A stretch of DNA of 64,000 nt from Wenyingzhuangia marina. GTDB taxonomy: Bacteria; Bacteroidota; Bacteroidia; Flavobacteriales; Flavobacteriaceae. Position 1 is the stretch's first letter, and every line of letters begins with the position of its first letter. The stretch covers positions 1 to 64,000 of the forward strand of contig NZ_FQXQ01000001.1 of assembly GCF_900130035.1 (NCBI RefSeq), in the 5' to 3' direction. The notes under the pieces are model-generated. The model searched no databases, was not told the DNA's origin, and saw only the letters and a program-made list of their open reading frames with translations. The translations under genes and the position numbers were made by a program. Below, piece by piece: positions 242-19,719 of this stretch.

Positions 242-515
242 CGCACCTTTTAACTTTATCTCCTAATATATCTTTAACTATTTTTTGACTTTTTTTAACC
301 AAGCATCTTAACAACCTTATTTATCGATTATTACATCCTAAATTATTTTTATTATTAGCATCATTTTAGGAATTAAAACCCTTTAATAACTCCTATATAT
401 CATACTCAAACTTCTCTTAGTAATCCATAACCTCCTCTGAAGACATTTAATCAGTACCTAAAAACTATATCACTTACTAAATGAAAACTACCATCTTTCT
501 TATAAAAACATCCCT

Positions 516-560
516 AAAACAAAAAAAGAGACCTATTATAGAAGTCTCTTTTTTTGTTTT
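516..560. terminator. Perfect 17-bp hairpin with T-tract
   Basis: Arms at 516-532 and 544-560 are perfectly complementary around an 11-base loop. The core is GAGAC/GTCTC with A-tract and T-tract flanks, so it can terminate in either direction. On the minus strand it lies beyond the ppnP terminator, so it may serve an unrecognised short transcript from 561-634. Confidence 0.6.
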
Positions 561-634
561 AAACCACTGCCTGGCGGATGTAGTCCTCGTATTCATACCA
601 AAATAATTCGAACTCTGGCATCGTACCGTTGAAG
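561..634. other. GC-rich intergenic island, unassigned
   Basis: About 75 bases of near 50% GC sit between two hairpin terminators in otherwise very AT-rich DNA. On the minus strand one frame gives 17 sense codons ending in TAA just before the 516-560 hairpin, but it has no start codon. Another frame has ATG followed by a stop after nine codons. It is not a convincing gene. It could be a decayed gene end or a small RNA. Confidence 0.3.
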
Positions 635-673
635 AAAAAAGCTCTACTAACAAATTGCTAGCAGAGCTTTTTA
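635..673 (-). terminator. Terminator of ppnP
   Basis: The hairpin pairs AAAAAGCTCT with AGAGCTTTTT (arms about 636-650 and 660-673), about 20 bases after the ppnP stop codon. It has a T-tract on the minus strand. Confidence 0.65.
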
Positions 674-693
674 AATATTTTGACTTATTTCAA

Positions 694-975
694 TTATTTA
701 TATTGACATAAATAAGAAGTTTGTCCAGATACTTTTACTTGAAACTTTTGATTAGCTTCAATTTGGTAAGCTTCACCTGCCTTGTATGTAACCCATTCAG
801 AAGATCCTGGTAATAAAACCGTCATCTCTCCTTCTACTACATTCATTGTTTCATGTAAACTTGTTGCGAACTCATAAGTTCCAGCTTCCATTACTCCTAA
901 GGTAGATTTACCTGTAGCTGATTCATATCCTAAAGATTTAACATTACCGTCAAAGTACTCATTTGCTGATATCAT
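694..975 (-). CDS. ppnP: Pyrimidine/purine nucleoside phosphorylase PpnP
   Basis: A 93-residue single-domain cupin of the YaiE/PpnP (DUF1255) family, full length for the family. It closely resembles the E. coli protein along its whole length: NEYFDGNVKSLGY near the start, a GVMEAGTYEF strand, VLLPGSSEW in the middle and TSYLCQY at the end. In E. coli this protein phosphorolyses many nucleosides to the free base and ribose-1-phosphate, so a cytosolic salvage role is expected. It is transcribed alone, with its own -7 box 26 bases upstream and a terminator downstream. Confidence 0.93.
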   Translation of the reverse strand: MISANEYFDGNVKSLGYESATGKSTLGVMEAGTYEFATSLHETMNVVEGEMTVLLPGSSEWVTYKAGEAYQIEANQKFQVKVSGQTSYLCQYK

Positions 976-1000
976 ATATTATGTTTTAATTATTTGAATA

Positions 1001-1008
1001 CAAAAATA
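1001..1008 (-). promoter_or_regulatory. ppnP: -7 box of ppnP
   Basis: The minus strand reads TATTTTTG (TAnnTTTG), 26 bases upstream of the ppnP start codon. No good -33 element is visible. Confidence 0.45.
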
Positions 1009-1088
1009 AGAAATTGTGTAGAGCTGACCATATCAATATATAAGAGCTTTAGAAAAACTGTAAAATAACTTCATTACAGTAAATCCTG

Positions 1089-1138
1089 TATAAAATAAAA
1101 AAGCCTTACTAGTTCTAGTAAGGCTTTTTTATTTTATA
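1089..1138 (-). terminator. Terminator of the act-cta operon
   Basis: A perfect 24-bp inverted repeat with a 2-base loop (arms 1089-1112 and 1115-1138, core GCCTTACTAG/CTAGTAAGGC). It begins 7 bases after the ctaD stop codon and its flanking A- and T-tracts make it bidirectional. Confidence 0.8.
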
Positions 1139-1145
1139 ATATATA

Positions 1146-2921
1146 TTATGATTCTTGTTCTCCTGCTTTTAAAGGAACTGTTTGCATAATATAGTCTTCT
1201 CCAAAAATGTATTCACCATTTTCATCTACTTTACTATAGTCATATGGCCAACGATATACTTCAGGGATTTCTCCTGGCCAGTTACCATGAATGTGCTCTA
1301 CTGGAGTTGTCCACTCTAGAGTGTTTGAACGCCATGGATTTTGAGATGCAACTTTTCCTTTGTAAATACTCATAAAGAAGTTTACTAAGAAAACAATTTG
1401 TGCAGCTCCACCAATTAAAGCAAAAACAGTCATTACTTGGTTTACATTTGCTAAATCATCAAATAATGGGAAGTTTGTGTTTGTATAATATCTACGTGGT
1501 AAACCTGCTAAACCGATAAAGTGCATTGGGAAGAAAACTCCGTAAGCAGCAATCGCTGTAATCCAGAAGTGAATGTAACCTAATGTTTTATTCATCATTC
1601 TTCCATACATTTTAGGGAACCAGTGATAAATACCTGCATACATACCATAGATAGCAGATACCCCCATTACTAAGTGGAAGTGAGCAACTACAAAGTAAGT
1701 ATCATGTACGTTAATATCTAATGCAGAATCTCCAAGAACAATCCCTGTTAATCCTCCTGTAATAAACGTAGAAACCAATCCAATAGAGAATAACATTGCA
1801 GGGTTAAACTGTAAGTTACCTTTCCATAAAGTAGTAATGTAGTTAAATGCTTTTACAGCAGATGGAATTGCAATTAATAAAGTTGTAAATGTAAATACAG
1901 ACCCTAAGAATGGATTCATTCCTGAAATGAACATGTGGTGTCCCCAAACGATTGTAGATAAAAATGCAATTGCCATAATAGATCCAATCATTGCACGGTA
2001 ACCAAAGATAGGTTTACGTGAATTTGTAGAAATAATTTCAGATGTTAATCCTAATGCTGGTAATAATACAATATATACTTCAGGGTGACCCAAGAACCAG
2101 AATAAGTGTTCAAATAAAACTGGAGATCCTCCTTGATAGTTTAATACTTCTCCCCCAATAAAAATATCAGATAAGTAGAAAGAGGTACCAAAACTTCTAT
2201 CAAAGATTAATAACAATGCAGCTGAAAACAATACTGGGAAAGATACAACACCAATAATAGCTGTAATAAATAAAGCCCACATAGTTAATGGCAATCTAGT
2301 CATTGTCATTCCTTTTGTTCTTAAGTTCAAAATTGTAACAATATAGTTTAACGAACCTATTAAAGATTGTGCAATAAATATAGCCATAGAAACTAGCCAT
2401 AATGTCATTCCTGTTCCTGAACCTGGAATTGCTTGTGGTAATGCAGATAATGGAGGGTAAATTGTCCATCCTGCAGAAGCTGGTCCTGCTTGAACAAATA
2501 AAGAAATAACCATAATTACTGATGATATAAAAAACAACCAGTAAGAAAGACAGTTCATAAATCCTGAAGCCATATCACGAGCTCCAATTTGCAATGGAAT
2601 TAATAAGTTAGAGAAAGTACCACTTAAACCTGCTGTTAATACAAAGAATACCATAATAGTACCGTGAATAGTAACCAAGGCTAAGTAAATATCTGGTTTC
2701 ATAACTCCTGCTTCAGATTGAAAACGCTCTGGCAAGAAAGCCTCAATAATAGAGAAAGAATGCTCTGGCCATGCTATTTGTAATCTAAATAACAAAGACA
2801 TTAATACTCCAATAACTCCCATGATCATACCAGTTACTAAAAACTGCTTTGAAATCATTTTATGATCTAAACTAAAAATATATTTAGTTACGAATGTTTC
2901 TTTATGGTGGTGTGCTGACAT
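1146..2921 (-). CDS. ctaD: Cytochrome c oxidase subunit I
   Basis: A 591-residue heme-copper oxidase catalytic subunit with about 12 membrane helices. It carries the signatures of the family: a GHPEVY motif with the CuB His and the cross-linked Tyr, the HHMF histidine pair, and HFHLVMG with the heme a and heme a3 His ligands. It reduces O2 to water with electrons from subunit II and pumps protons. It is the last gene of the alternative complex III operon, 42 bases after subunit II and followed by a strong terminator. Subunits III and IV are not in this window. The GHPEVY motif indicates an A-type (aa3) enzyme rather than cbb3. Confidence 0.97.
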   Translation of the reverse strand: MSAHHHKETFVTKYIFSLDHKMISKQFLVTGMIMGVIGVLMSLLFRLQIAWPEHSFSIIEAFLPERFQSEAGVMKPDIYLALVTIHGTIMVFFVLTAGLSGTFSNLLIPLQIGARDMASGFMNCLSYWLFFISSVIMVISLFVQAGPASAGWTIYPPLSALPQAIPGSGTGMTLWLVSMAIFIAQSLIGSLNYIVTILNLRTKGMTMTRLPLTMWALFITAIIGVVSFPVLFSAALLLIFDRSFGTSFYLSDIFIGGEVLNYQGGSPVLFEHLFWFLGHPEVYIVLLPALGLTSEIISTNSRKPIFGYRAMIGSIMAIAFLSTIVWGHHMFISGMNPFLGSVFTFTTLLIAIPSAVKAFNYITTLWKGNLQFNPAMLFSIGLVSTFITGGLTGIVLGDSALDINVHDTYFVVAHFHLVMGVSAIYGMYAGIYHWFPKMYGRMMNKTLGYIHFWITAIAAYGVFFPMHFIGLAGLPRRYYTNTNFPLFDDLANVNQVMTVFALIGGAAQIVFLVNFFMSIYKGKVASQNPWRSNTLEWTTPVEHIHGNWPGEIPEVYRWPYDYSKVDENGEYIFGEDYIMQTVPLKAGEQES

Positions 2922-2963
2922 AATAAATTTTATCTTTTTATGATTCTAAAACGGTTTTAATAA

Positions 2964-4022
2964 CTAAAATAATTCTTTAGCCGTCTTTTGTTGGTTTAAC
3001 CAAATCAAGTAATCCTTCTCTGATTCAACAACAATTTTCATTTGCATATTATAATGAGATGGTCCACAAATTTTATTACATAATAATAAGTAATCAAATT
3101 CATAAGGTTCTTCTCCATTAGCTTCTCTTGCAGCATTTACACTTGCTACTTTTAGAATTACATCTTCTTGTTGACGCATTTCTTCAGTAGTATATTTTGG
3201 AGTAAATCCAAATTCTGTAACCATTCCTGGTACACAGTTCATTTGTGCTCTAAAGTGAGGCATATATGCTGAGTGTAATACATCTTGAGAACGGAATTTG
3301 AATACTACTTTTTTACCAACTGGTAAGTGTAATTCTCTAACAGGAATATCATCAGCTGCATGTTCATCGCTCATGTCAATTCCCATGGTATTAGCTCCAC
3401 TAATGTTTCTTACGTTTCCACGTCCTAATTCATTATCTCTACCTGCATATCTTGCTTCCCAAGCAAATTGTTTTGCATATACTTCTACAACAATGGCTTC
3501 ATCTCCTTCTAAATCAGTTACATCATTCCATATTGACAATCCATATAAGATTAATACAGCCAAAACAACTGTAGGAATAGTTGTCCAGATTAATTCCAAT
3601 TTATGAGAATCTGCAAAGAAAGTAGCTTTTCTTCCTTTAATTCCTCTGTATTTATATGAGAAAAAGTATAATAATGCTTGAGTGATAAATTGTACGATTC
3701 CAATTAACCAAAAGGTTATAATATATAAGTTATCATAATCTTCACCTTCAATTGATGCCGCATCTGGTAGCATCAAATCATGTAAGTAAATTAAACAATA
3801 TCCCATAAAAAGGTAAAAACCTACTAAGAATATTAAAAATAATTTACCTTGAATATCATTGTCTTTTTCAGTAGCGATAGGGTTATTATCGTTTTCAAAA
3901 GTAATGATCTTTTTTCCATCTTTAATTTCTTTAAAGATTACTCTGTAAGTAAGTAGTTTGTTTACTTGCCAAACTCCAATGGCAAACGCAACAGCTACGA
4001 AAAAATAAAATAATGCTAACAT
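2964..4022 (-). CDS. ctaC: Cytochrome c oxidase subunit II
   Basis: A 352-residue membrane protein: an N-terminal hydrophobic segment, two further helices around residues 58-78 and 100-120, another near 148-166, then the periplasmic CuA domain. The CuA site is visible as HSAYMPHF, followed by CNKICGPSHYNM (Cys-x3-Cys-x3-His-x2-Met). It accepts electrons from the cytochrome c domain of alternative complex III and passes them to subunit I. The extra N-terminal hydrophobic segments are longer than the usual two-helix anchor, as in other Bacteroidota. It is cotranscribed with actF (39 bases) and ctaD. Confidence 0.95.
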   Translation of the reverse strand: MLALFYFFVAVAFAIGVWQVNKLLTYRVIFKEIKDGKKIITFENDNNPIATEKDNDIQGKLFLIFLVGFYLFMGYCLIYLHDLMLPDAASIEGEDYDNLYIITFWLIGIVQFITQALLYFFSYKYRGIKGRKATFFADSHKLELIWTTIPTVVLAVLILYGLSIWNDVTDLEGDEAIVVEVYAKQFAWEARYAGRDNELGRGNVRNISGANTMGIDMSDEHAADDIPVRELHLPVGKKVVFKFRSQDVLHSAYMPHFRAQMNCVPGMVTEFGFTPKYTTEEMRQQEDVILKVASVNAAREANGEEPYEFDYLLLCNKICGPSHYNMQMKIVVESEKDYLIWLNQQKTAKELF

Positions 4023-4061
4023 AATTTTGTTTTAAATTTTTTGCAAATGTAATGATATATA

Positions 4062-5462
4062 TTAATAATGGAAATGTTCACTTTCGTGTAAGAAAGGGTT
4101 TCCTTTTGCAATTAATGGAGCTTTACTAATAGTGGTAAATACTGCATAAATAAACAATCCTAAAAAGAATAAAACACTTCCTATTTCACCCCATCCAAAT
4201 CCCCATTGATCACCAACTGTTGCTGGCATAATCATTACGAAAACATCAATATAGTGACCTATTAAGATAATAGTTCCTGCTCCTAATACAATTTGAGGAA
4301 TACGCTTAAAGTCACTGTTAACTAACATTAAGATTGGTAAAATAAAGTTCAAAGGAATCATTCCTAAGAATAAGAATTTATATTCATCAAAACGCTGTAC
4401 AAAATATGTAGTTTCTTCTGGCATATCTGCATACCAAATTAACATAAACTGTGCGAACCATAAATAAGTCCAAAAAATAGAGAAACCAAACATAAATTTA
4501 GCTAAATCATGTAAATGGCTATTATTTACTATTTCTAAGTATCCTTTAGATTTTAAATAAACAGTTACCATTGCAATTACTGTTAAAGCAGAAACTACTC
4601 CCGTTGCAAATACATACCATCCAAATAAAGTAGAGAACCAGTGCGGATCTAATCCCATAATCCAGTCCCAAACAGACATAGATTCTGTAAAAATAAAGAA
4701 TGCTAAAAAGGCAACTCCTAATTTATAGTTTTTATAGTAGTGTTTTAAATCTGATGCATTGTCTTGTAAAACAGAGTTTTTTCTATTTAAGTAAACAAAA
4801 ACATTCCACCCCACTAAATAGATAATACTACAAATTAACCATCTTGGTACGTTTAACCATCCTGATTTGTTAGCGATGATTGGATCAAAGTTTGGTGATG
4901 AAGGATCTACTGTTCCTTCTGCCATCCATACAAACAAGTGATTTCCATGAAAAGCAGTTATTACGATGAATGCTAAAAATATTACAGATACATATGGTAA
5001 AAATCCTGAGATTCCTTCCATAACTCTAAACAAAACAATTGACCAACCTGCTTGAGCAACTCTTTGAATGTTTAAGAAAGCAAAAACAACAACTGTTACA
5101 AAAGTAAAGAAGAATAATGCAACATAAAATGCCGCCCATGGTCTGTTTTGTAATTGATGAAAAACATGTGCTAAATGACCACTATCATGTCCTTCTTCTG
5201 CATGATGATCTGCATGTTTTTCGTGAGTAGTGTCTACGTGATGAGCGTCTTTATCTGCATGTTCATGAGTTTCATCATGAGCAATTGTTTTTGTTGCGTG
5301 AGCTTCACCATGAGCACCGTGTGCAGCTTCTTGGTGAGCTAATATTTCAGCAGCTTCAGCCTCTGTACTTGGAGCAGATGCAAAACTGATGATAATACCT
5401 ATTAAACCAATTACCATTAAGGCAATAGCTCCTATTTTTAATTTACTTGAAAATTGATACAT
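4062..5462 (-). CDS. actF: Alternative complex III subunit ActF (quinol:cytochrome c oxidoreductase membrane subunit)
   Basis: A 466-residue multi-spanning membrane protein of the ActF family, related to ActC/NrfD, with about ten helices. After an N-terminal anchor, residues about 35-105 form a long Ala/Glu/His-rich extramembrane stretch with many HxxH-like pairs. It is then followed by the helical body (from AFYVALFFFTF on). In known ACIII structures ActF belongs to the integral membrane part with ActC. The His-rich insert is not needed for the fold and may bind metal; that role is inference. It lies between actE and ctaC in the same operon. Confidence 0.9.
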   Translation of the reverse strand: MYQFSSKLKIGAIALMVIGLIGIIISFASAPSTEAEAAEILAHQEAAHGAHGEAHATKTIAHDETHEHADKDAHHVDTTHEKHADHHAEEGHDSGHLAHVFHQLQNRPWAAFYVALFFFTFVTVVVFAFLNIQRVAQAGWSIVLFRVMEGISGFLPYVSVIFLAFIVITAFHGNHLFVWMAEGTVDPSSPNFDPIIANKSGWLNVPRWLICSIIYLVGWNVFVYLNRKNSVLQDNASDLKHYYKNYKLGVAFLAFFIFTESMSVWDWIMGLDPHWFSTLFGWYVFATGVVSALTVIAMVTVYLKSKGYLEIVNNSHLHDLAKFMFGFSIFWTYLWFAQFMLIWYADMPEETTYFVQRFDEYKFLFLGMIPLNFILPILMLVNSDFKRIPQIVLGAGTIILIGHYIDVFVMIMPATVGDQWGFGWGEIGSVLFFLGLFIYAVFTTISKAPLIAKGNPFLHESEHFHY

Positions 5463-11107: not shown

Positions 11108-12313
11108 TTAGTAGTGACACTTACCACACTCTTTACCTCCTAATTGAGCGATGGTAACTTTATCCACCCCGTATTTTTGAGATAATTGTTCGTGTATTTT
11201 TTTGTAGTATCCATTACCTGCAATGTTCACTTCAGTTTCTTTGTGACATTCAATACACCAACCCATTGTTAATGGAGCATATTGATATAACTCATCCATC
11301 TCTTCAACTGGACCATGACATTTTTGACACTTTACTCCTGCAACTGTTACGTGTTGTGAATGATTGAAATAAGCAAAGTCTGGTAAATTATGAATACGAA
11401 CCCATTTTACTGGTTTTGTTTCACCTGTATACTTTAAGTTTTCTGAATCCCATCCAGCAGCCTCGTATACTTTTTGAATTTCTTTATCTAAATATGCTTT
11501 TCCTTTAGTATCTATTTTAGTATCATCAGCAACTTCAGAAATATTTTTATGACAGTTCATACAAACATTTACAGAAGGAATTCCTGATGTTTTAGAATGT
11601 TTAGCTGACGAGTGACAGTATTGACAATCTATCTTATTATCTCCTGCATGTATTTTATGAGAAAAAGCAATAGGCTGTACTGGCTGATAACCTTCATCAA
11701 CCCCCACAGACATTAAAGCTGTAAATCCAAAATAAACACCTAAGAAAACTAAAACAATCGTAGATACTATCTTTAAGAAACCATTGTTACTTTTTAAGAA
11801 AACCCACCCTATTAAGGCTAATAAAACCAACGTTACCACTACTGTAGCAATCATAGGTAATACTTGACTTGGAGTTGATTCTGCCTCTACCGCTTGAACT
11901 GCCGTAGCTGCTCCTGCTTTTTTAACGTCACCAACAGTTGTATAAGCAATAATATCTTCTATCTGCTCATCAGATAAAAACTCAAAAACACTCATCGCAA
12001 CACCACCATATTCTTCATAAATTGCTTTTGCATCAGCATCTCCAGAAGCTCTTAATTTGTTGTTGTTTTTGATCCATGCTTTAAGCCAATCCATATCTCG
12101 GCGTTCTGCTACACCTGACAATGCAGGACCTGTTGATTTTTTGTCTAACTTGTGACAAGAGGCACAATGCATGTTAAACAATGCTTTTCCTGCTTTTACC
12201 TGCTCATCTGACGGCTTATCTTGTGCAGATAAACTTAAAGAAAAAGAGAAGAAAAGCGCTAGACTTAACTTTAAAACACTAGATAATTTTCTGTGTAATT
12301 TCACAATTTTCAT
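11108..12313 (-). CDS. actA: Alternative complex III subunit ActA, multiheme cytochrome c
   Basis: A 401-residue cytochrome with a signal peptide. A class I-type cytochrome c domain comes first (CASCHK, about residue 50), then a transmembrane helix (about 155-175) and a second hydrophobic stretch, then five more heme sites: CQYCH, CMNCH, CQKCH, CIECH and CGKCHY at the very end. That makes six CxxCH motifs. The family core is the pentaheme part; the N-terminal monoheme domain is an additional module here. It is the first gene of the operon, so electron carrier genes precede the membrane subunits and the oxidase. Confidence 0.94.
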   Translation of the reverse strand: MKIVKLHRKLSSVLKLSLALFFSFSLSLSAQDKPSDEQVKAGKALFNMHCASCHKLDKKSTGPALSGVAERRDMDWLKAWIKNNNKLRASGDADAKAIYEEYGGVAMSVFEFLSDEQIEDIIAYTTVGDVKKAGAATAVQAVEAESTPSQVLPMIATVVVTLVLLALIGWVFLKSNNGFLKIVSTIVLVFLGVYFGFTALMSVGVDEGYQPVQPIAFSHKIHAGDNKIDCQYCHSSAKHSKTSGIPSVNVCMNCHKNISEVADDTKIDTKGKAYLDKEIQKVYEAAGWDSENLKYTGETKPVKWVRIHNLPDFAYFNHSQHVTVAGVKCQKCHGPVEEMDELYQYAPLTMGWCIECHKETEVNIAGNGYYKKIHEQLSQKYGVDKVTIAQLGGKECGKCHY

Positions 12314-12394
12314 ACAGTTGTATAATAAGTTTTAAATATATTCTAAACGTGAATTTATAAGACATGATAAAAATCACTTAAATTTCACGTTAGG

Positions 12395-12402
12395 CAAAAG
12401 TA
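12395..12402 (-). promoter_or_regulatory. -7 box of the act-cta operon
   Basis: The minus strand reads TACTTTTG (TAnnTTTG), about 80 bases upstream of actA. This is the only good -7 match in the divergent gap 12314-12522, which otherwise holds only the rightward box at 12492. Confidence 0.4.
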
Positions 12403-12491
12403 ATATTATGCATTCAATTGGAGAACAGATATAGCGTCTAAAAGTTAATTTATAGATATTCTAAATAAGGTTTTTTTAGGATTACTTTTAT

Positions 12492-12499
12492 TATATTTG
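12492..12499 (+). promoter_or_regulatory. -7 box of the SPOR/luxR pair
   Basis: TATATTTG (TAnnTTTG) 23 bases before the ATG at 12523. No clear -33 element. Confidence 0.45.
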
Positions 12500-12522
12500 T
12501 ATCTATTTTAAACAAGTTATTC

Positions 12523-12870
12523 ATGCATAATAAAATATTTTTTATTTTTACCTTAACAATAAGCATGTGCTTTACAAAGTTGATGTATTCACAAGAAAAC
12601 AAAACTTCTTTGGAACATTTTATAGAAAAAAAACGTAACTATAACAAAACCAGTAAAAAAGGTTATAGTGTTTTACTTTACAACGGTAACGAAGAGCAAG
12701 CTTTAAGCATTTATAGTTCATTTGAAGAAGATTATAAAGACATAAAAATTAAGCTAACCTATGTGAGTCCTGACTGGAAAGTGATTACAAAAGCATATGG
12801 TACAAAAATTGAGGCTGAACGTATATATTTAATTCTTAAAGAGAAGCACCCAAACGCAAAAATTTTATAA
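12523..12870 (+). CDS. Small exported SPOR-like protein
   Basis: A 115-residue protein with an N-terminal signal peptide (hydrophobic core 4-20, cleavage near YSQ|EN). The remaining ~90 residues look like a SPOR fold: GYSVLLYNG at the start, then an alternating helix/strand pattern ending in EAERIYLILKEKHPNAKIL. SPOR domains bind denuded peptidoglycan glycan, so a periplasmic cell-wall role is possible, but I assign the domain by pattern only. It is followed after 2 bases by a LuxR-type regulator, so the two form an operon. Confidence 0.7.
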   Translation: MHNKIFFIFTLTISMCFTKLMYSQENKTSLEHFIEKKRNYNKTSKKGYSVLLYNGNEEQALSIYSSFEEDYKDIKIKLTYVSPDWKVITKAYGTKIEAERIYLILKEKHPNAKIL

Positions 12871-12872
12871 AA

Positions 12873-13649
12873 TTGAATGATCAACAAAACATAGACATTT
12901 ATCAAGAAGTATTTAATACGATTAAAGACTACAATAAAGGAATTGTAGATACTCATATCAAAAAACTTAAAGATTTAGATGCTTTTTTGTTACCTACACA
13001 GTCATTTTTTATACTAACAAACACCATTAACAACACTTACGAATTCATTAGTAAAAACTTTGAACAAACACTAGGTCTTAGTATTGATAAAATGATGAGT
13101 GAAGGAGTTCCTTATTGGTTTGATCATCACCATCCTAAAGATTTAGAAATTTGGTTAAATATTTTAAACGAATTGATGTCTTTTACCATGGCTGAAATAC
13201 CAGTTGAAGATAGAAAAAAACTATCATACACCTGGAACCTAAGAATTAAAAACGCTAAAGGAGTTTATGTTAACTTACACAAACATCAAACCCCAATTGC
13301 ATTTGATGAAAGTGGAAAACCTATTGTAGGAATTAGTCACAATACTATCACTTCAGAAAATGTTGAACTTCCAATTATTGCCTCAATAAAAATGTTGAAT
13401 GACAATGATGAATACGAAACATTGTTTTACAAAAACTACAGTCAAAGCTTACTTACAGATGGTTTATCTAATAGAGAAAAAGACGTTCTTCGATTGTTAG
13501 CCTTAAATCATACTAGTAAAGAAATAGGTGAGAAACTTTTTATTAGTCCGCATACTGTTGATGGACACAGAAGAAAAATCATAAAAAAAACTGGCTTAAA
13601 TTCTACTGGAGAAATTATTCAATATTGTAAATCACAACAATTGTTTTAA
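12873..13649 (+). CDS. LuxR-family transcriptional regulator with PAS-like N-terminus
   Basis: 258 residues. The N-terminal ~130 residues look like a PAS-type sensing fold (FFILTNTINNTYEFISKNF, then WFDHHHPKDLEIW). The C-terminal 60 residues are a clear LuxR helix-turn-helix (LSNREKDVLRLLA...HTVDGHRRKI). The frame opens with TTG at 12873, two bases after the upstream stop. The nearby ATG at 12877 is out of frame and soon hits a stop, and the first internal Met comes at residue 73, so TTG is the likely start. There is no receiver domain, so it probably senses a ligand directly. The target genes are unknown. Confidence 0.85.
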   Translation: MNDQQNIDIYQEVFNTIKDYNKGIVDTHIKKLKDLDAFLLPTQSFFILTNTINNTYEFISKNFEQTLGLSIDKMMSEGVPYWFDHHHPKDLEIWLNILNELMSFTMAEIPVEDRKKLSYTWNLRIKNAKGVYVNLHKHQTPIAFDESGKPIVGISHNTITSENVELPIIASIKMLNDNDEYETLFYKNYSQSLLTDGLSNREKDVLRLLALNHTSKEIGEKLFISPHTVDGHRRKIIKKTGLNSTGEIIQYCKSQQLF

Positions 13650-13656
13650 ACATTTT

Positions 13657-13694
13657 AAAAAAGCATATTACACAAAGTTGTAATATGCTTTTTT
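13657..13694 (+). terminator. Terminator after the luxR-type gene
   Basis: Perfect 16-bp arms (AAGCATATTACA/TGTAATATGCTT plus A- and T-tracts) with a 6-base loop, starting 8 bases past the stop. Confidence 0.75.
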
Positions 13695-13713
13695 GCTTTA
13701 TTACAAATCCCAT

Positions 13714-13734
13714 AAACACTCAGATTGAGTGTTT
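13714..13734. repeat. Short palindrome, copy 1
   Basis: Perfect 9-bp arms AAACACTCA/TGAGTGTTT around GAT. The same arms form the core of the larger palindrome at 13840-13884. Confidence 0.6.
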
Positions 13735-13754
13735 CATAAAACACAGAAGTAACC

Positions 13755-13762
13755 TATTTTTG
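13755..13762 (+). promoter_or_regulatory. Orphan rightward -7 box
   Basis: TATTTTTG followed by CAC, a perfect TAnnTTTG element in a gap between two convergent genes. No gene follows it; the next terminator is at 13980. It could drive a small RNA of about 250 bases. The -33 element is not clear. Confidence 0.35.
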
Positions 13763-13839
13763 CACTACATTAAAAACTTCTTCATGTTTTTTTCATGAAA
13801 AAGAAAGTTTCTATTTAATGATAACTAAAAAAAGTAACT

Positions 13840-13884
13840 GAGTGTATTTCAAAACACTCAATTTGAGTGTTTTGAAATACACTC
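13840..13884. repeat. Perfect 22-bp inverted repeat
   Basis: Arms 13840-13861 and 13863-13884 are perfectly complementary around a single base (GAGTGTATTTC... to ...GAAATACACTC). The inner core repeats the palindrome at 13714-13734. There is no T-tract after it, so it is not an ordinary terminator. It could be a hairpin in a small RNA or a protein-binding site. The rest of 13695-13979 shows a weaker hairpin (TTCATG...CATGAA, about 13781-13799) and no open frame. Confidence 0.7.
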
Positions 13885-13979
13885 ATGTTTACTAAATTTA
13901 TGATGCTAAAAATATAAGAATATTAAAAACTTAATATATACAAGAGAGTTTAATCGTTGAAAAGGAAATAGTTGTTAAA

Positions 13980-14013
13980 AAAAAGACGTTACTTGCTATG
14001 GTAACGTCTTTTT
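13980..14013. terminator. Terminator between convergent genes
   Basis: Arms AAAAAGACGTTAC (13980-13992) and GTAACGTCTTTTT (14001-14013), perfect, usable in both directions. On the minus strand it lies 24 bases after the ettA stop. Confidence 0.75.
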
Positions 14014-14037
14014 ATTTTTATTTATAAAATCAATTAT

Positions 14038-15729
14038 TTATCTAATTAACTTTTTATACTTAATTCTCTTAGGCATATTATCTCCTCCAAGTCTTTTAAT
14101 TTTATTTTCTTCATATTCAGAAAAAGATCCCTCAAAGAAATATACTTGACTATCTCCTTCAAATGCTAAGATATGAGTACAAACCCTATCTAAAAACCAT
14201 CTATCGTGAGAAATTACTACTGCACATCCTGCAAAATTATCAAGCCCTTCTTCTAAAGCTCTTAATGTATTTACATCTAAATCGTTAGTAGGTTCATCTA
14301 ATAACAACACGTTTCCTTCTTCACGCAAAGTCATTGCTAAATGTAAACGGTTACGTTCACCACCTGATAAAGTAGATACTTTTTTATTTTGCTCTGATCC
14401 AGAAAAATTAAAACGAGATAAATAAGCTCTTGAATTTACCATTCTCCCTCCCATCATAATCAACTCTTGACCTTCAGAAAAATTTTCCCATATAGATTTA
14501 TCAGCATCAATATTAGAGTGTGTTTGATCTACATATGCAATTTTAGCAGTGTCTCCAACCACAAACTCTCCTCCGTCAGGAGTTTGTTCTCCCATGATCA
14601 TTCTAAAAATAGTTGATTTACCAGCTCCGTTAGGCCCAATAATTCCAACAATTCCATTTTGAGGTAAATTAAATTCTAAATTATCATATAATAATTTATC
14701 TCCAAAAGCTTTTGAAACTCCTTTAGCTTCAATTACATTAGTTCCCAAACGAGGTCCATTAGGAATGTAAATCTCTAATTTTTCTTCAACTTGTTTTTGG
14801 TCTTGGTTCATCAACTTGTCATAGTTCTTTAAACGAGCTTTTGATTTTGCTTGACGACCTTTAGCTCCTTGACGAACCCATTCTAATTCTCTCTCTAACG
14901 TTTTTTGACGTTTAGAAGCGGTCTTTTCTTCTTTTGCCAAACGTTGCCCTTTTTGATCTAACCAAGAAGAATAGTTTCCTTTCCAAGGAATCCCTTCTCC
15001 TCTATCTAACTCTAAAATCCAACCTGCAACATTGTCTAAGAAATACCTATCGTGCGTAATAGCAATTACTGTTCCTTTGTATTGTGCCAAGTGATGTTCT
15101 AACCAATGTACAGATTCAGCATCTAAGTGGTTCGTAGGTTCATCTAATAATAATACATCTGGTTCTTGTAACAACAATCTACACAATGCTACTCTTCTTC
15201 TTTCCCCTCCTGATAAGTTCTTTATTGGCGTATCTCCTTCTGGAGTACGTAAAGCATCCATGGCAATTTCTAACTTGGTATCTAATTCCCATGCATTAGA
15301 TGCATCTATTTGATCTTGTAATTCAGCTTGACGAGCCATTAACTGATCCATTTTATCTGCATCAGAATACACCTCTTCTAAACCAAACATATCGTTAATT
15401 TTGTTGTACTCTTCTAAAATAGCAACTGTTTCTGCAGCACCTTCTTTTACAACATCCATTACCGTTTTATCATCATCTAATTGAGGTTCTTGCTCTAAAT
15501 AACCTACTGAATATCCTGGCAAAAAAGTTATATCCCCTTGATAGTTTTTTTCTACTCCAGCTATAATCTTCATTAAAGTAGATTTACCTGAACCATTTAA
15601 ACCTAAAATTCCAATTTTAGCTCCGTAAAAAAAACTTAAATGAATATTTTTTAATACTTGTTTTCCTGTTGATTGGTAAGTTTTACTCAATCCAGACATG
15701 GAAAAAATTACTTTCTTATCGTCTGACAT
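14038..15729 (-). CDS. ettA: Energy-dependent translational throttle protein EttA (ABC-F ATPase)
   Basis: 563 residues with two ABC ATPase domains: Walker A GLNGSGKST near residue 42 and GPNGAGKST in the second half; signatures LSGGERRR and LSGGERNR; Walker B VLLLDEPTNHLD and VLLLDEPTNDLD. The arm insertion in the first domain and the inter-domain linker rich in Lys/Arg fit EttA. EttA binds the ribosomal E site and gates the first elongation step according to the ATP/ADP ratio. The frame is open for 27 more codons upstream, but the Met before SDDKKVIFSMSGLSK gives the usual family length, so I start there. Confidence 0.92.
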   Translation of the reverse strand: MSDDKKVIFSMSGLSKTYQSTGKQVLKNIHLSFFYGAKIGILGLNGSGKSTLMKIIAGVEKNYQGDITFLPGYSVGYLEQEPQLDDDKTVMDVVKEGAAETVAILEEYNKINDMFGLEEVYSDADKMDQLMARQAELQDQIDASNAWELDTKLEIAMDALRTPEGDTPIKNLSGGERRRVALCRLLLQEPDVLLLDEPTNHLDAESVHWLEHHLAQYKGTVIAITHDRYFLDNVAGWILELDRGEGIPWKGNYSSWLDQKGQRLAKEEKTASKRQKTLERELEWVRQGAKGRQAKSKARLKNYDKLMNQDQKQVEEKLEIYIPNGPRLGTNVIEAKGVSKAFGDKLLYDNLEFNLPQNGIVGIIGPNGAGKSTIFRMIMGEQTPDGGEFVVGDTAKIAYVDQTHSNIDADKSIWENFSEGQELIMMGGRMVNSRAYLSRFNFSGSEQNKKVSTLSGGERNRLHLAMTLREEGNVLLLDEPTNDLDVNTLRALEEGLDNFAGCAVVISHDRWFLDRVCTHILAFEGDSQVYFFEGSFSEYEENKIKRLGGDNMPKRIKYKKLIR

Positions 15730-15789
15730 ATTTTTTTTAATTTTTTGATGATTACAAAAATACTTCTTTTTTAACAAAGCATTACATAA

Positions 15790-15890
15790 AAAAGCCAGTT
15801 GAAATTTCAACTGGCTTTAAACTAACTAAACTTAATATACTAAATTTCAAACTTGTTGAAAAAAGATTCTTAATTTCTAATTATATCTAA
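15790..15890. repeat. Direct repeat, left copy (about 101 bp)
   Basis: Nearly identical to 19195-19299: one base substitution, a 1-base and a 5-base indel. It contains a hairpin (GCCAGTTGAAA/TTTCAACTGGC, 15793-15814) and a copy of the last five codons and stop of the marR gene. Here it lies just after the secreted hydrolase gene and upstream of ettA. The right copy ends marR itself, so the left one looks like a duplicate. It also works as a terminator for the hydrolase gene. Confidence 0.85.
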
Positions 15891-15937
15891 AAAATACTCC
15901 TTATATTTTATTTAAAACACCAACTAATATTCTAAAA

Positions 15938-17968
15938 TTAATTAATAATTAGTATTGCAAAACTGCAACTATAAACCCCATTAATATCAAAAGACATATA
16001 AACAGGCTGTGAATAATTTAAACTTCCTTTGTTAATTATTAACGATTCATTATTTGTATAAGTCTTTGAAATAGTATTATTATTAATATCTACAACAGAC
16101 AGATTTAAGTTTTCATACTCAATATCAACATTAAAATTAATATGTAAGTCACCACCTATAATATCCACATATAAACTATTCTTAAACGCTTCGTCTACAT
16201 CAATTTCTAATACAACTTCTTCATCTTCATCGAAAGTTTTATAACTAACAGATGAGTTTTCTAATTCAGTAACATTATCAGCTATGACATGTGGATTATA
16301 TTCTGATTTTTGTTTAATAAACCCTGTTGATTTTATTTTTGCTGAAAATTCTCCACCTTGAGCTACACTAAATCCGTTTTTAAGAGTAATACTATTACCA
16401 GATGTTACTCTTTTTGCTCCATTTATAATTACATCGCCAATTATTGTGACATTCTCTTTGGCTACAAAAACACTACTGTTTTCAAAATCAATATTACTAA
16501 GTATCAAATTATCATTTACATACCTATCTACAATTACATTATTGTTATTAATATTACTCATTATAAAATCAACTTGTGAATTATAAATATTATTATGCTC
16601 TCCATTAAATTCATTTAATATAAAATCATCAAAAGATGATCTTTCGTGAAATAATTCTCTGGAAACCCCTGTATAAAACTCTGAAGGATCAATTGTATAA
16701 TCTAATGAACTAATTGTTGGAATAAAACAAAAATCTTCACCTATTGTATACTCAAAATCATCTAGTACATTTAATTTGGTTTCTAAATTACTTAAGAGAA
16801 AACTTGTAGACCCTGCAACATTATCATAACTTAAATTTTCATCCGAGAAGAAAACATCCTCACCTCCTTTAATAATACCTTTATACATATTAATACTATA
16901 CGATGATAAAAATTCATCTGAAACAAAGCCCTTATTAACACTCCCTAAAACGGTATCATCAACCCAATAAAACGTCTTGGTGCAGCCTTTAAATTTATAC
17001 CACGCTGGACATCCTGACCATCCCTTACTTACTACCCAAGGAAACCTCTCAGTCGTCGGAGTATTTTCTTTTCTATACTCTATACTAAATACCTCTTCTC
17101 CTTCGCTTCCAACTTTAAGTTGACTAGAACCATTCGATAACGCAATTTTATAAGGTATAGATGGAAAACCATTATTATTTGGGTTTAAATTATACATTTC
17201 TTCAAAAAAATCATGTTTTAATAGTGAAGGCATAGCAACTCCATTAAGAGATGCTTTTTCTGAATAAACAAGCAATTGTTCAAAAGCAGGAAAGGATTTA
17301 TAAACACTTAACAAAGCTAATGACAAAGGAAAACTTGCTAAACCTGATTTTGTACTAACTGAACGAATAAGATGTTGAATTCCTAAAGGAACATTGGCTC
17401 CTTTGTGAGGAGCATCATGAGAAACATATAACCTTGTATGGTGATTTATGTTATTTTTTTCCATCCAAGTCAATCCATATCTAGTAACAAGTCCTCCCAT
17501 ACTGTACCCCATGACTACGGTATTGTTTTCATTAGGATTTTCTTTTAAGTTATTAACTGTAGTTAAAAGTTCTGTAAAAAGTCTTGCATTTTTTTGAATT
17601 TCTATAGTACTTTTATCATAATCTAATATTATGATATCATATCCTAAACTCAATAGTTGATCTATTAAACTATTTTCTTCCCTATCTATACTATTGTTAT
17701 TGTTATATAATCCAATATGAGTTGGAAACTCTTGATCCTCTTCAAAGTCTATTCCTTCAGCAATTATAAATGGCTTTGTTAACTTAGTATTATTGTCTCC
17801 TAAAATCACTAGAAATTCACCTGTTATTAATTCATTTTCATAATTTACTGAAACGGAAAAAACATCACAGGGAGAGCCATTAAAATTAATAGTTCTAATT
17901 GAGTTTTGTGCATTAATATTTTGTGAAATAGTCAAGAAAAAAGCCAATAATATTATTAATTTTCTCAT
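15938..17968 (-). CDS. Secreted lipase-like alpha/beta hydrolase
   Basis: 676 residues with a signal peptide (cleaved near NAQ|NS). Residues about 75-215 form an alpha/beta hydrolase resembling PGAP1/lipase class proteins: IILDYDKS, then the nucleophile elbow GYSMGG (Ser about 157), and SHDAPHKG afterwards, where the catalytic acid/His would be expected further on. Near residue 530 there is a short repeat-rich piece (SGNSITLKNGFSVAQGGEF) of the kind found in many exported Bacteroidota proteins, followed by a beta-rich tail. I see no standard T9SS sorting tail. It follows the fibre-like gene by 2 bases in the same operon. The substrate is unknown. Confidence 0.75.
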   Translation of the reverse strand: MRKLIILLAFFLTISQNINAQNSIRTINFNGSPCDVFSVSVNYENELITGEFLVILGDNNTKLTKPFIIAEGIDFEEDQEFPTHIGLYNNNNSIDREENSLIDQLLSLGYDIIILDYDKSTIEIQKNARLFTELLTTVNNLKENPNENNTVVMGYSMGGLVTRYGLTWMEKNNINHHTRLYVSHDAPHKGANVPLGIQHLIRSVSTKSGLASFPLSLALLSVYKSFPAFEQLLVYSEKASLNGVAMPSLLKHDFFEEMYNLNPNNNGFPSIPYKIALSNGSSQLKVGSEGEEVFSIEYRKENTPTTERFPWVVSKGWSGCPAWYKFKGCTKTFYWVDDTVLGSVNKGFVSDEFLSSYSINMYKGIIKGGEDVFFSDENLSYDNVAGSTSFLLSNLETKLNVLDDFEYTIGEDFCFIPTISSLDYTIDPSEFYTGVSRELFHERSSFDDFILNEFNGEHNNIYNSQVDFIMSNINNNNVIVDRYVNDNLILSNIDFENSSVFVAKENVTIIGDVIINGAKRVTSGNSITLKNGFSVAQGGEFSAKIKSTGFIKQKSEYNPHVIADNVTELENSSVSYKTFDEDEEVVLEIDVDEAFKNSLYVDIIGGDLHINFNVDIEYENLNLSVVDINNNTISKTYTNNESLIINKGSLNYSQPVYMSFDINGVYSCSFAILIIN

Positions 17969-17970
17969 AA

Positions 17971-18873
17971 CTACTCTTTATTTAATTGAGCCTTTAAAGA
18001 CTTAACTTCTTTACTCAACTCTATTAAATACAAAGTCAATTCCTCTATTTTTTCTTGTTGTTTAATGGTTACTTCTTTTAAGTTTACACCTTCTTTTACA
18101 ATTTCTTTTTCAGATTTAAACCCTTCTAGGTGACCATTACTTTTAATATAATCTTCTACCTGGGACAACGGTTTTAAATTGTAATTTTCTTTAAAAACAT
18201 AATCAGCAAAAATATTAGTATCTACCAAAACCTCTGTAGCATGTATTTTACCATTTACTGTTAATAGTGAGTCTGGATTAAGTGTTCCTATTCCTACCTT
18301 CATATTATCTTTAACTATCATTGTAGGTGAAAGAGTCCCTCCTCCAGACCAGCTAGTACCTCCTCCAAAATATAAATTTCCATTTGCTCCATATATAGCT
18401 GCAGGATTATTAACCCCACCTCCATTTTGATTACCTAATAAAATAGCACTAGACCCTGAAGCACCTGTTACAGATAGCCTTGCATTTATTCCATAAACAG
18501 ATAAATTCTCCTTAGGAGTTGTTGTTCCAATACCAACTTTACCACCTTGTGGGTTTATTAAAAAAGTTCTGTTTTGTGAATAATCTATTGGGTTTTTAGC
18601 TTGAATATACCCTGCATAATCGTAGATATAATCATTTATAATTCCTGATAAAATCTCAGTACCACCCCATGATCTTTGGATGTATCCAATTCTTAAAAAT
18701 CCATTTGGCGTGCTTCCAGATGTAGCAGGTAATCCAAAAGAATCAGAAGCTATATCTAATTTAACCGTTGGACTAGTAGTCCCAATACCAACATTACTGC
18801 CCGTATCTGTTATTTGAGCATTAAGGCCAAAAGTTATTCCAATAAAAGCAATTAATAAAATTCTTTTTTTCAT
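17971..18873 (-). CDS. Exported tail-fibre-like protein (peptidase S74-type stalk)
   Basis: 300 residues. The signal peptide (MKKRILLIAFIGITFGLNAQ) marks the start; 12 codons upstream in frame are left out. The body has at least three copies of a VGIGTTxP-type motif (about residues 28, 120 and 200) separated by Gly-rich beta regions, then a short conserved block (ADYVFKENYNL, HLEGFKSE) and a long C-terminal coiled coil rich in Lys/Glu/Leu. This is the pattern of phage tail-fibre and adhesin-like proteins in Bacteroidota that trimerise through the coiled coil. No chaperone Ser-Lys dyad is recognisable. It is paired with the hydrolase gene. Confidence 0.7.
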   Translation of the reverse strand: MKKRILLIAFIGITFGLNAQITDTGSNVGIGTTSPTVKLDIASDSFGLPATSGSTPNGFLRIGYIQRSWGGTEILSGIINDYIYDYAGYIQAKNPIDYSQNRTFLINPQGGKVGIGTTTPKENLSVYGINARLSVTGASGSSAILLGNQNGGGVNNPAAIYGANGNLYFGGGTSWSGGGTLSPTMIVKDNMKVGIGTLNPDSLLTVNGKIHATEVLVDTNIFADYVFKENYNLKPLSQVEDYIKSNGHLEGFKSEKEIVKEGVNLKEVTIKQQEKIEELTLYLIELSKEVKSLKAQLNKE

Positions 18874-18951
18874 AATATTTTTTTGTTTAAAATTTTCAGA
18901 AAAATACAACTCTTTAGTATATGAAAAAAGTAATTATTTATATTTTTAGCC

Positions 18952-18970
18952 TGTTACAATTTTTGTAACA
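18952..18970. repeat. Small inverted repeat upstream of the fibre gene
   Basis: TGTTACAA/TTGTAACA around TTT, about 80 bases before the fibre gene start on the minus strand. It could be an operator. The rest of 18874-19194 is AT-rich and shows no gene and no convincing -7 box near the start codon. Confidence 0.4.
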
Positions 18971-19194
18971 AGCTTTTATTAATTGTAAATATCTTTATCA
19001 GAAAACACTTTTTATTTTCATTAATTCTTAAAGTATTTAATTTTATTTGTTTGGATTGAACACTTTACTTACTATAGAAAGTCCATAAAAAAAATCGCCA
19101 TCAAATTGGATTTGTAGACCCTTTATATTTTCTAGAATTTTTAAATCTTATATAGGTAAATCTCCTAGAGATTACAAAAAGAGTCAACAAAAAT

Positions 19195-19299
19195 AAAAGC
19201 CAGTTGAAATTTCAACTGGCTTTAACTAACTAAACTTAACTTAATATACTAAATTTCAAACTTGTTGAAAAAAGATTCTTAATTTCTAATTTTATCTAA
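19195..19299. repeat. Direct repeat, right copy (about 105 bp)
   Basis: Partner of 15790-15890. It covers the last codons of marR, its stop and its terminator hairpin (GCCAGTTGAAA/TTTCAACTGGC, 19199-19220). The two copies bracket exactly the two-gene secreted module. Confidence 0.85.
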
Positions 19300-19719
19300 C
19301 AGGTAACAAAGTTGACTAGCTTCTTCTTCTGTTAAACGCTCTATTTGCTCCATGGTTTTATTAAAAGATACTTTTTCTAAAAGTTGTAATCCTTTTTCTG
19401 TAATGGAAACGTATACCACTCTTCTATCTTCCTTACATCTAACTCTCTCAATAAGTTCTTTATCTAATAACTTATCTGTTAAACGAGTCGTATTAGGTGA
19501 TTTTTCTATCATTCTCTCTTTGACCAATTTCATTGTAATTGGCTTTTTAGCCCCTCTTAATATTCTAAGAATATTATACTGAGGAGTAGAAATTTGATAA
19601 GGCTCCAATTCCTTATTTCCTAAAGCGCTAAAAAAATTGGCTGTATATTTTAAATTCAAAACAGCTTTTAGGTGTTGTGAATCAAAAACAGTATTTACTT
19701 CTTTAGAAAATTCAGTCAT
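19279..19719 (-). CDS. MarR-family transcriptional regulator
   Basis: 146 residues: a dimerisation helix, then a winged helix (PQYNILRILRGA, MKLVKERMIEKSPNTTRLTDKLLDKELIER, wing RCKEDRRVVYVSIT). This is the usual MarR length and layout. It lies 4 bases after the FMN reductase gene, so it is probably the second gene of that operon. A perfect 18-bp palindrome in their common promoter (20313-20330) is the likely binding site, which gives autoregulation. The inducer is unknown; MarR next to an oxidoreductase often answers quinones or oxidants. Confidence 0.88.
   Translation of the reverse strand: MTEFSKEVNTVFDSQHLKAVLNLKYTANFFSALGNKELEPYQISTPQYNILRILRGAKKPITMKLVKERMIEKSPNTTRLTDKLLDKELIERVRCKEDRRVVYVSITEKGLQLLEKVSFNKTMEQIERLTEEEASQLCYLLDKIRN

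Follow-up and report, generated by a model that had tools for sequence, protein, structure and literature searches.

An apparently lineage-specific hydrolase and fibre gene pair, accompanied by a copied terminator, between marR and ettA of Wenyingzhuangia marina

We describe an insertion in a 64,000-nt stretch of Wenyingzhuangia marina DNA (contig NZ_FQXQ01000001.1, positions 1 to 64,000; hereafter the window), in which a gene for a lipase-like hydrolase and a gene for a fibre-like protein lie between marR and ettA, in the company of two direct repeats that carry the marR 3′ end. Genome comparison shows this hydrolase–fibre module to be a lineage-specific insertion. The account that we favour, with moderate confidence, is that the module was inserted in one arm of a terminator hairpin on the ettA side (T1) together with a copy of the terminator that lies between marR and an AraC-family gene (T2), beside the remnants of a deleted cluster of GH2-family and AraC-family genes.

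Comparison with related genomes

The comparison covered seven Wenyingzhuangia genomes, that of W. marina included; one of them (G006) is 85% complete. All seven carried marR and ettA, in each case on the same contig. The original prediction, made from the window alone, had placed the entry of the module between these two genes, and at this place the module was indeed absent from all six other genomes. Nor did these six contain a match to the fibre protein at E≤1e-8, or to the hydrolase at E≤1e-10 save one of 36% identity, partial over 128 residues, elsewhere in G004. The nearest genome among those compared was that of W. gilva (G003; the MarR of W. gilva chi5 shares 93% identity). It provided the state that the prediction had suggested seeking in relatives, namely an interval without the module and a single full copy of the repeat, located at marR. 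The G003 interval holds an AraC-family gene and two GH2-family genes (AraC-GH2-GH2).

Edges of the insert

Alignment to G003 located both edges of the insert. In blastn, the colinearity of window 12003-15793 with G003 extended to reversed coordinate 4108 of the latter (block 303-4108). The match resumed at window 18948-19050 from reversed coordinate 4113, with T1 and the end of the GH2-family gene GH2b, and again from window 19086 onward at G003 10836, with the AraC end, T2 and marR. The DNA flanking the insert was 88-89% identical to G003. The features concerned are, in window coordinates:

15730-15789, unstranded: native ettA leader, colinear with G003 to the left junction (blastn block and alignment)
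15790-18947, unstranded: inserted segment of ~3.16 kb, consisting of the left terminator copy and the hydrolase–fibre module; its flanks are contiguous in G003 (reversed coordinates 4108 and 4113)
15790-15890, minus strand: left repeat, comprising a copy of the marR/AraC terminator and the final six marR codons with the stop; it now follows the hydrolase gene
18948-18977, unstranded: decayed ettA-side terminator hairpin T1, a 14-bp perfect stem in G003
~18979-19069, minus strand: decayed 3′-terminal part of a GH2-family gene, corresponding to GH2b of G003 and interrupted by stops and a frameshift (blastn and tblastn)
19087-19196, plus strand: frameshifted 3′-terminal remnant of a gene for an AraC-family regulator (tblastn in two frames: 88% over 25 amino acids (aa), E 2e-13; 67% over 15 aa, E 7e-5)
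19195-19299, minus strand: right repeat, the original bidirectional terminator T2 with the last marR codons; G003 has the same place and the same last codons

The GH2b-side block scored 63.5 bits in blastn, against at most 33.7 bits in 60 mononucleotide shuffles, and a GH2b relative elsewhere in the W. marina genome reached 38% identity only. The colinearity and the scraps shared with G003 show that the GH2-AraC cluster was ancestral and has been lost here except for its two ends. The ancestor common with G003 had the order ettA - T1 - GH2b - GH2a - AraC - T2 - marR. Most of GH2b-GH2a-AraC (~6.6 kb) was deleted in the lineage of the window, and both 3′ ends were left as decaying scraps.

Since scraps of the G003 cluster lie between the module and the right repeat, the insert extends from 15790 to ~18947. 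Its right edge is at ~18947, the right repeat starts 247 bp farther on, and the sequence between them is old and shared with G003. The left repeat is the left edge of the insert and the right repeat is resident sequence, so that the insert itself is not bracketed by the repeats.

This layout bears directly on the first of two routes of entry offered by the original prediction, a duplication of the site by the insertion itself. Two direct copies do flank the genes and the module is missing from relatives, as a transposon-like or cassette-like insertion with a ~100-bp target-site duplication between marR and ettA would have it. We nevertheless hold such an origin to be very improbable, and the colinearity with G003 contradicts it: the insert ends at ~18947 and the right copy begins only at 19195, beyond 247 bp of older remnants; the interval contains no transposase or recombinase open reading frame (ORF); and the supposedly duplicated piece includes coding sequence of the neighbouring gene. 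The second route, entry with a terminator copy or by recombination at one, fits better.

Between the two repeats we found two ORFs of at least 80 aa, those of the hydrolase and the fibre protein, both on the minus strand and 2 bases apart. The claim that only these two genes lie there holds for ORFs of this length and their orientation; what the window alone could not show is that the interval also contains decayed remnants of two other genes, at ~18979-19196. Because there is no third ORF of this length, the interval contains no integrase or transposase gene, as had been predicted, and neither the hydrolase nor the fibre protein matched a recombinase in Pfam.

The junctions themselves share a short word. 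The sequence is AAAAGCCTGTTACAGTTTTTGTAACAGGCTTTT for T1 of G003 and AAAAGCCAGTTGAAATTTCAACTGGCTTT for T2 of the window, and the hairpin arms of both start with AAAAGCC. At the left junction the ettA leader runs through AAAAGCC into T2, and the right junction resumes with AGCCTGTTAC of T1. Both edges of the insert fall in the AAAAGCC arm of T1, the hairpin that in G003 separates ettA from the GH2 gene. Among the other genomes, G002 has AAAAGCCT at about the same distance from ettA and G004 has a different hairpin with AAAAGCC, farther from ettA; AAAAGCC was not seen near ettA in the stretch compared in G001, G005 and G006.

The terminator copy

The original prediction had described the repeats as near-identical, with one substitution and two short indels, and both the coordinates and the differences were confirmed. 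The left copy (101 nt) and the right copy (105 nt) are ~94% identical over ~100 bp; the single substitution affects the codon for marR K143, and alignment by eye gives two indels, of 1 nt and 5 nt (in the MAFFT alignment the 1-nt gap comes with one further mismatch). A perfect palindrome of 28 nt is present in each copy, together with the final six codons of marR and the stop, LDKIRN-stop on the right and LDIIRN-stop on the left, and the homology of the left copy to the right one ends at 15890. That the right copy is the true end of marR with its terminator, as predicted, agrees with its counterpart in G003.

The repeat was also sought elsewhere in the W. marina genome (3.24 Mb, 11 contigs), as the prediction had proposed. 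Full-length matches occurred at two places only (40 of 42 first-look candidates scored), and the five matches at E≤0.01 comprised the two copies, two palindrome self-hits and one 34-nt partial match on contig C5. Since only these two full copies exist in the genome, a genome-wide terminator family is ruled out as an explanation of the repeat.

AAATTTCAAACTTG is common to both window copies where G003 has AAAATTCAACATTG, and at the K codon the right copy retains the G003 state, the left copy being changed. The bases in which both window copies agree against G003 show that the T2 copy was made after the split from G003, in the lineage of the window or in a close strain. The same bases speak against a module and T2 copy that are old and were lost by the relatives. 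Such a history would suit an interval whose contents differ among most genomes of the genus, but, relative to G003, the left copy and the resident T2 have derived bases in common, and both genes are missing at marR–ettA in the six other genomes, and we regard it as highly improbable.

A different history, possible in our view though clearly less likely than the one we favour, is that a close strain in which the locus is organised differently passed on the entire 3.16-kb segment, terminator copy included, in a single homologous transfer. The 88-89% identity of the flanks to G003 makes homologous transfer among close strains plausible, and a T2 copy that is near-identical to the resident T2 and has its lineage-specific bases is also expected from a donor of the same species. 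Such a layout was, however, absent from all seven genus genomes examined, and transfer in one piece only shifts the joining event to another strain.

Read in the direction of the module, the left copy is predicted to fold into a stem of 12 bp (-17.3 kcal/mol), with a run of T after it. Its position, direction and predicted fold suggest that the left copy now ends module transcription, as a terminator. Direct homology of ~100 bp at high identity can support deletion, and the two direct repeats, ~100 bp at 94% identity, have that length. They might now permit RecA-mediated loss or exchange of the module, which would make it an unstable, population-variable cassette. This would be compatible with the insertion proposed here; we find it rather doubtful, the deleted form (ettA-T2-marR) being present in none of the seven genomes and the assembly showing the module form only.

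Proposed origin of the insertion

Our favoured account of a module inserted in the T1 arm with a T2 copy involves the following steps. Module-bearing DNA would have been taken in, and the T2 copy may have been joined to it by illegitimate recombination or template switching. T1 and T2, being look-alike hairpins, may have recombined through their common AAAAGCC. The T2 copy would have been retained because it insulates ettA by ending module transcription, which is directed towards that gene. The hydrolase (lipase/esterase-like) and the fibre-like surface protein would both be exported, and the account does not require them to act jointly. At least two events, the cluster deletion and the insertion, are needed, because the scraps adjoin the insert rather than surround it.

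Insertions at microhomologies offer the closest general parallel, with a short common word where the sequences join, an interval free of mobile-element genes, asymmetric ends and old scraps adjoining. Unlike such insertions, the end added here copies the terminator of a neighbouring gene together with six codons and the stop of that gene.

Several observations weigh against this account. The recombination step rests on a 7-nt common word in an AT-rich genome, and similar hairpins exist elsewhere, for example AAAAGCC...GGCTTTT at window 1099-1128. The protein match of the GH2b scrap is weak (in tblastn, 12 residues with an internal stop at E 0.002 and 8 residues at E 0.79), so that its identification depends mainly on the DNA match. 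The module genes have GC contents of 0.28 and 0.32 and a GC content at third codon positions (GC3) of 0.16-0.17, against a GC3 of 0.18-0.21 in the neighbours; with a composition so near that of its neighbours, the module lends no support to a distant donor. The terminator function of the left copy is a prediction only. Finally, because a single genome carries the insertion, the order of events and the donor are not fixed.

The marR–ettA interval in the genus

The marR–ettA interval is probably a place of gene turnover in Wenyingzhuangia, and the module its latest state in one lineage. The conserved genes at either side are, in the window:

14038-15729, minus strand: ettA, EttA-type ABC-F ATPase, left neighbour (NCBIfam TIGR03719, 916 bits, cutoff 807)
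19279-19719, minus strand: marR-family regulator, right neighbour (Pfam MarR, 40.3 bits, cutoff 24.6)

A pirin gene lies between marR and ettA in five of the seven genomes (Pirin domains were checked for the G001 copy), alone in G001 and G006 and with further genes in G002, G004 and G005. W. marina and G003 have pirin relatives elsewhere only, at 27-39% identity. Further, differing genes were seen in the interval of three other species (L016:3233-4378; L019:2576-6987; L017:3642-4837), and the 381-aa protein of the G002 interval had no Pfam match at E≤0.001.

Contents that vary between a conserved marR and a conserved ettA recall an insertion hotspot in general. The likeness stops at the usual landmarks: no tRNA gene was found in the window and the interval contains no integrase, and therefore nothing marks a classical island site.

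The hydrolase and the fibre protein

The two genes of the module are:

15938-17968, minus strand: alpha/beta hydrolase of 676 aa, lipase-like (Pfam LCAT, 26.2 bits, cutoff 21; NCBIfam GCX_COOH, 26.7 bits, cutoff 26)
17971-18873 (from ATG), minus strand: fibre-like protein of 300 aa (PHROG tail families, best 2.4e-9; no Pfam match above cutoff)

The LCAT match of the hydrolase is weak but above cutoff, and its 3-coathanger domain (residues 517-546) is barely above cutoff. The start of the protein looks like a signal peptide by eye. A GxSxG nucleophile elbow is present as GYSMG at 154-158, within GYSMGG, with Ser156 as the putative nucleophile. Both Ser156 and His458 were invariant in all 13 hydrolases aligned (the window protein and 12 of 24 fetched relatives); the two residues are probably catalytic and the enzyme probably lipase-like. 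Relatives occurred in at least 77 of 397 sampled Flavobacteriaceae genomes (E≤1e-20, W. marina included), with identities of 28-43% among the family matches listed and up to 47% in the phylum sample, over partial length. The protein resembles the exported alpha/beta hydrolases of Flavobacteriaceae (LCAT/PGAP1-like) in its N-terminal domain and in the invariant Ser156 and His458, and differs from them by low identity, a match over partial length and another locus. Several of the relatives adjoin genes that we take to be pruA and rsmG. In a search for a donor, the family sample (397 genomes, up to 2 candidates scored in each) and the phylum sample (395 genomes, up to 3 in each) gave distant hydrolases only, among the matches listed, and a single-protein scan of genome contigs with the hydrolase yielded none that was confirmed.

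The fibre protein has a signal-peptide-like start (by eye), VGIGT-type repeats and a coil-like C-terminal part, and the repeats match tail-fibre PHROGs. The S74-like stalk of the original prediction was not recovered, Pfam giving no match to Peptidase_S74 up to E 0.1. Two phage proteins annotated as chaperone of endosialidase matched fibre residues 7-230 at 27-28% identity, and not the C-terminal end. At the same threshold as for the hydrolase, relatives were present in at least 61 of the 397 Flavobacteriaceae genomes, W. marina included, with up to 5 candidates scored per genome. The protein is like the exported, multicopy fibre-like proteins of this family in its repeats and conserved C-terminal part, and neighbouring copies occur in several genomes; the difference is that within Wenyingzhuangia only the W. 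marina genome has it, in three copies (E≤1e-8). In other Flavobacteriaceae, fibre relatives often adjoin further copies and sometimes stand directly before a large exported-looking ORF (L180, L182, L185, L191, L193). Five such large ORFs following fibres, each truncated where its locus ends, yielded a single SpvB match, under the Pfam cutoff, and no other match at E≤0.01.

The suggestion that hydrolase and fibre form a fixed surface attachment/lysis pair is not supported, because none of the 32 fetched hydrolase loci contained the fibre and none of the 29 fetched fibre loci the hydrolase (tblastn, E≤1e-3). These were the best-scoring loci, with flanks of ~1.5 kb past the match, and absence in a sample with such short flanks is no proof; a few hydrolase loci (e.g., L050, L060) are mostly filled by a long ORF, where a neighbour would not show. 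What stands of the suggestion is the likeness of the fibre to tail-fibre PHROGs and to the two phage proteins.

Candidate outside sources were tried and rejected. For a phage origin, no phage record matched the hydrolase and two weak ones matched the fibre, and none was confirmed in viral contigs, searched with single-protein queries, which find close relatives only. For a plasmid origin of the fibre there were eight records, all below 60% identity, six of which cover at most 38% of the query, at its C-terminal end. Neither protein matched a solved structure at E≤0.1 or a PADLOC entry at E≤0.001.

An integron-like array elsewhere in the genome

One paralog of the fibre protein (39%; L066:7399-8349, G000:C3) is a cassette gene of an integron-like array that lies outside the window at G000:C3:217162-245276 (L171 7162-8385; L066). 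Its 21 repeats lie on one strand, 20 of them 185-207 bp long and the final one incomplete, with mostly one gene per interval, and a 407-aa tyrosine recombinase is encoded upstream of them. Where a repeat starts, the bases immediately preceding ACACCGGC are complementary to the bases that follow the end motif CCGTT/ACGTT in the repeat before it. Complementarity at 6 or more positions, GTT included, was found in 15 of 19 adjacent repeat pairs against 52 of 380 non-adjacent pairings (one of 20 adjacent pairs was unscorable). The R″ and R′ boxes of the attC sites of integron cassettes show such complementarity.

With 188 of 265 bits the recombinase of the array missed the integrase_gron cutoff, and with 212.5 of 220 it barely missed that for XerA. 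Because sub-cutoff matches to integrase_gron also occurred in all 14 control genomes, this match by itself identifies a tyrosine recombinase only. Its two integrase_gron matches skip profile positions 180-239, presumably about where the IntI-specific patch lies. Within the same array locus, L171:10469-11269 and 13291-14091 encode what by eye is apparently the same 266-aa protein, one of them looking recently duplicated. The third fibre paralog (L067:6058-8391, G000:C4) adjoins a tyrosine recombinase (Phage_int_SAM_5) near tRNA-Asp and looks like the remains of an island. Integrons are reported for Bacteroidota (PMC8618304, PMC9668308). The integron-like array may be of more interest than the module insertion itself.

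Discussion

The hydrolase–fibre module is a real insertion, specific to one lineage, that comes with a terminator copy and whose scars can still be read; the case is of an ordinary kind and well resolved. It is an example of a gene pair entering a chromosome without a visible mobile-element gene, and one comparison, that with W. gilva, is enough to read the two junctions, what is left of the earlier occupant and where the copied terminator came from. It is a speculative and quite unlikely extension that look-alike hairpins of intrinsic terminators are sites at which gene modules are exchanged in this group, with modules entering a spacer through the arm of a resident terminator and bringing, or being joined to, a terminator copy of their own, so as to be insulated from the start. 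Should several events of this kind turn up at terminator hairpins, they would suggest that terminators are preferred entry points that also insulate the newcomer.

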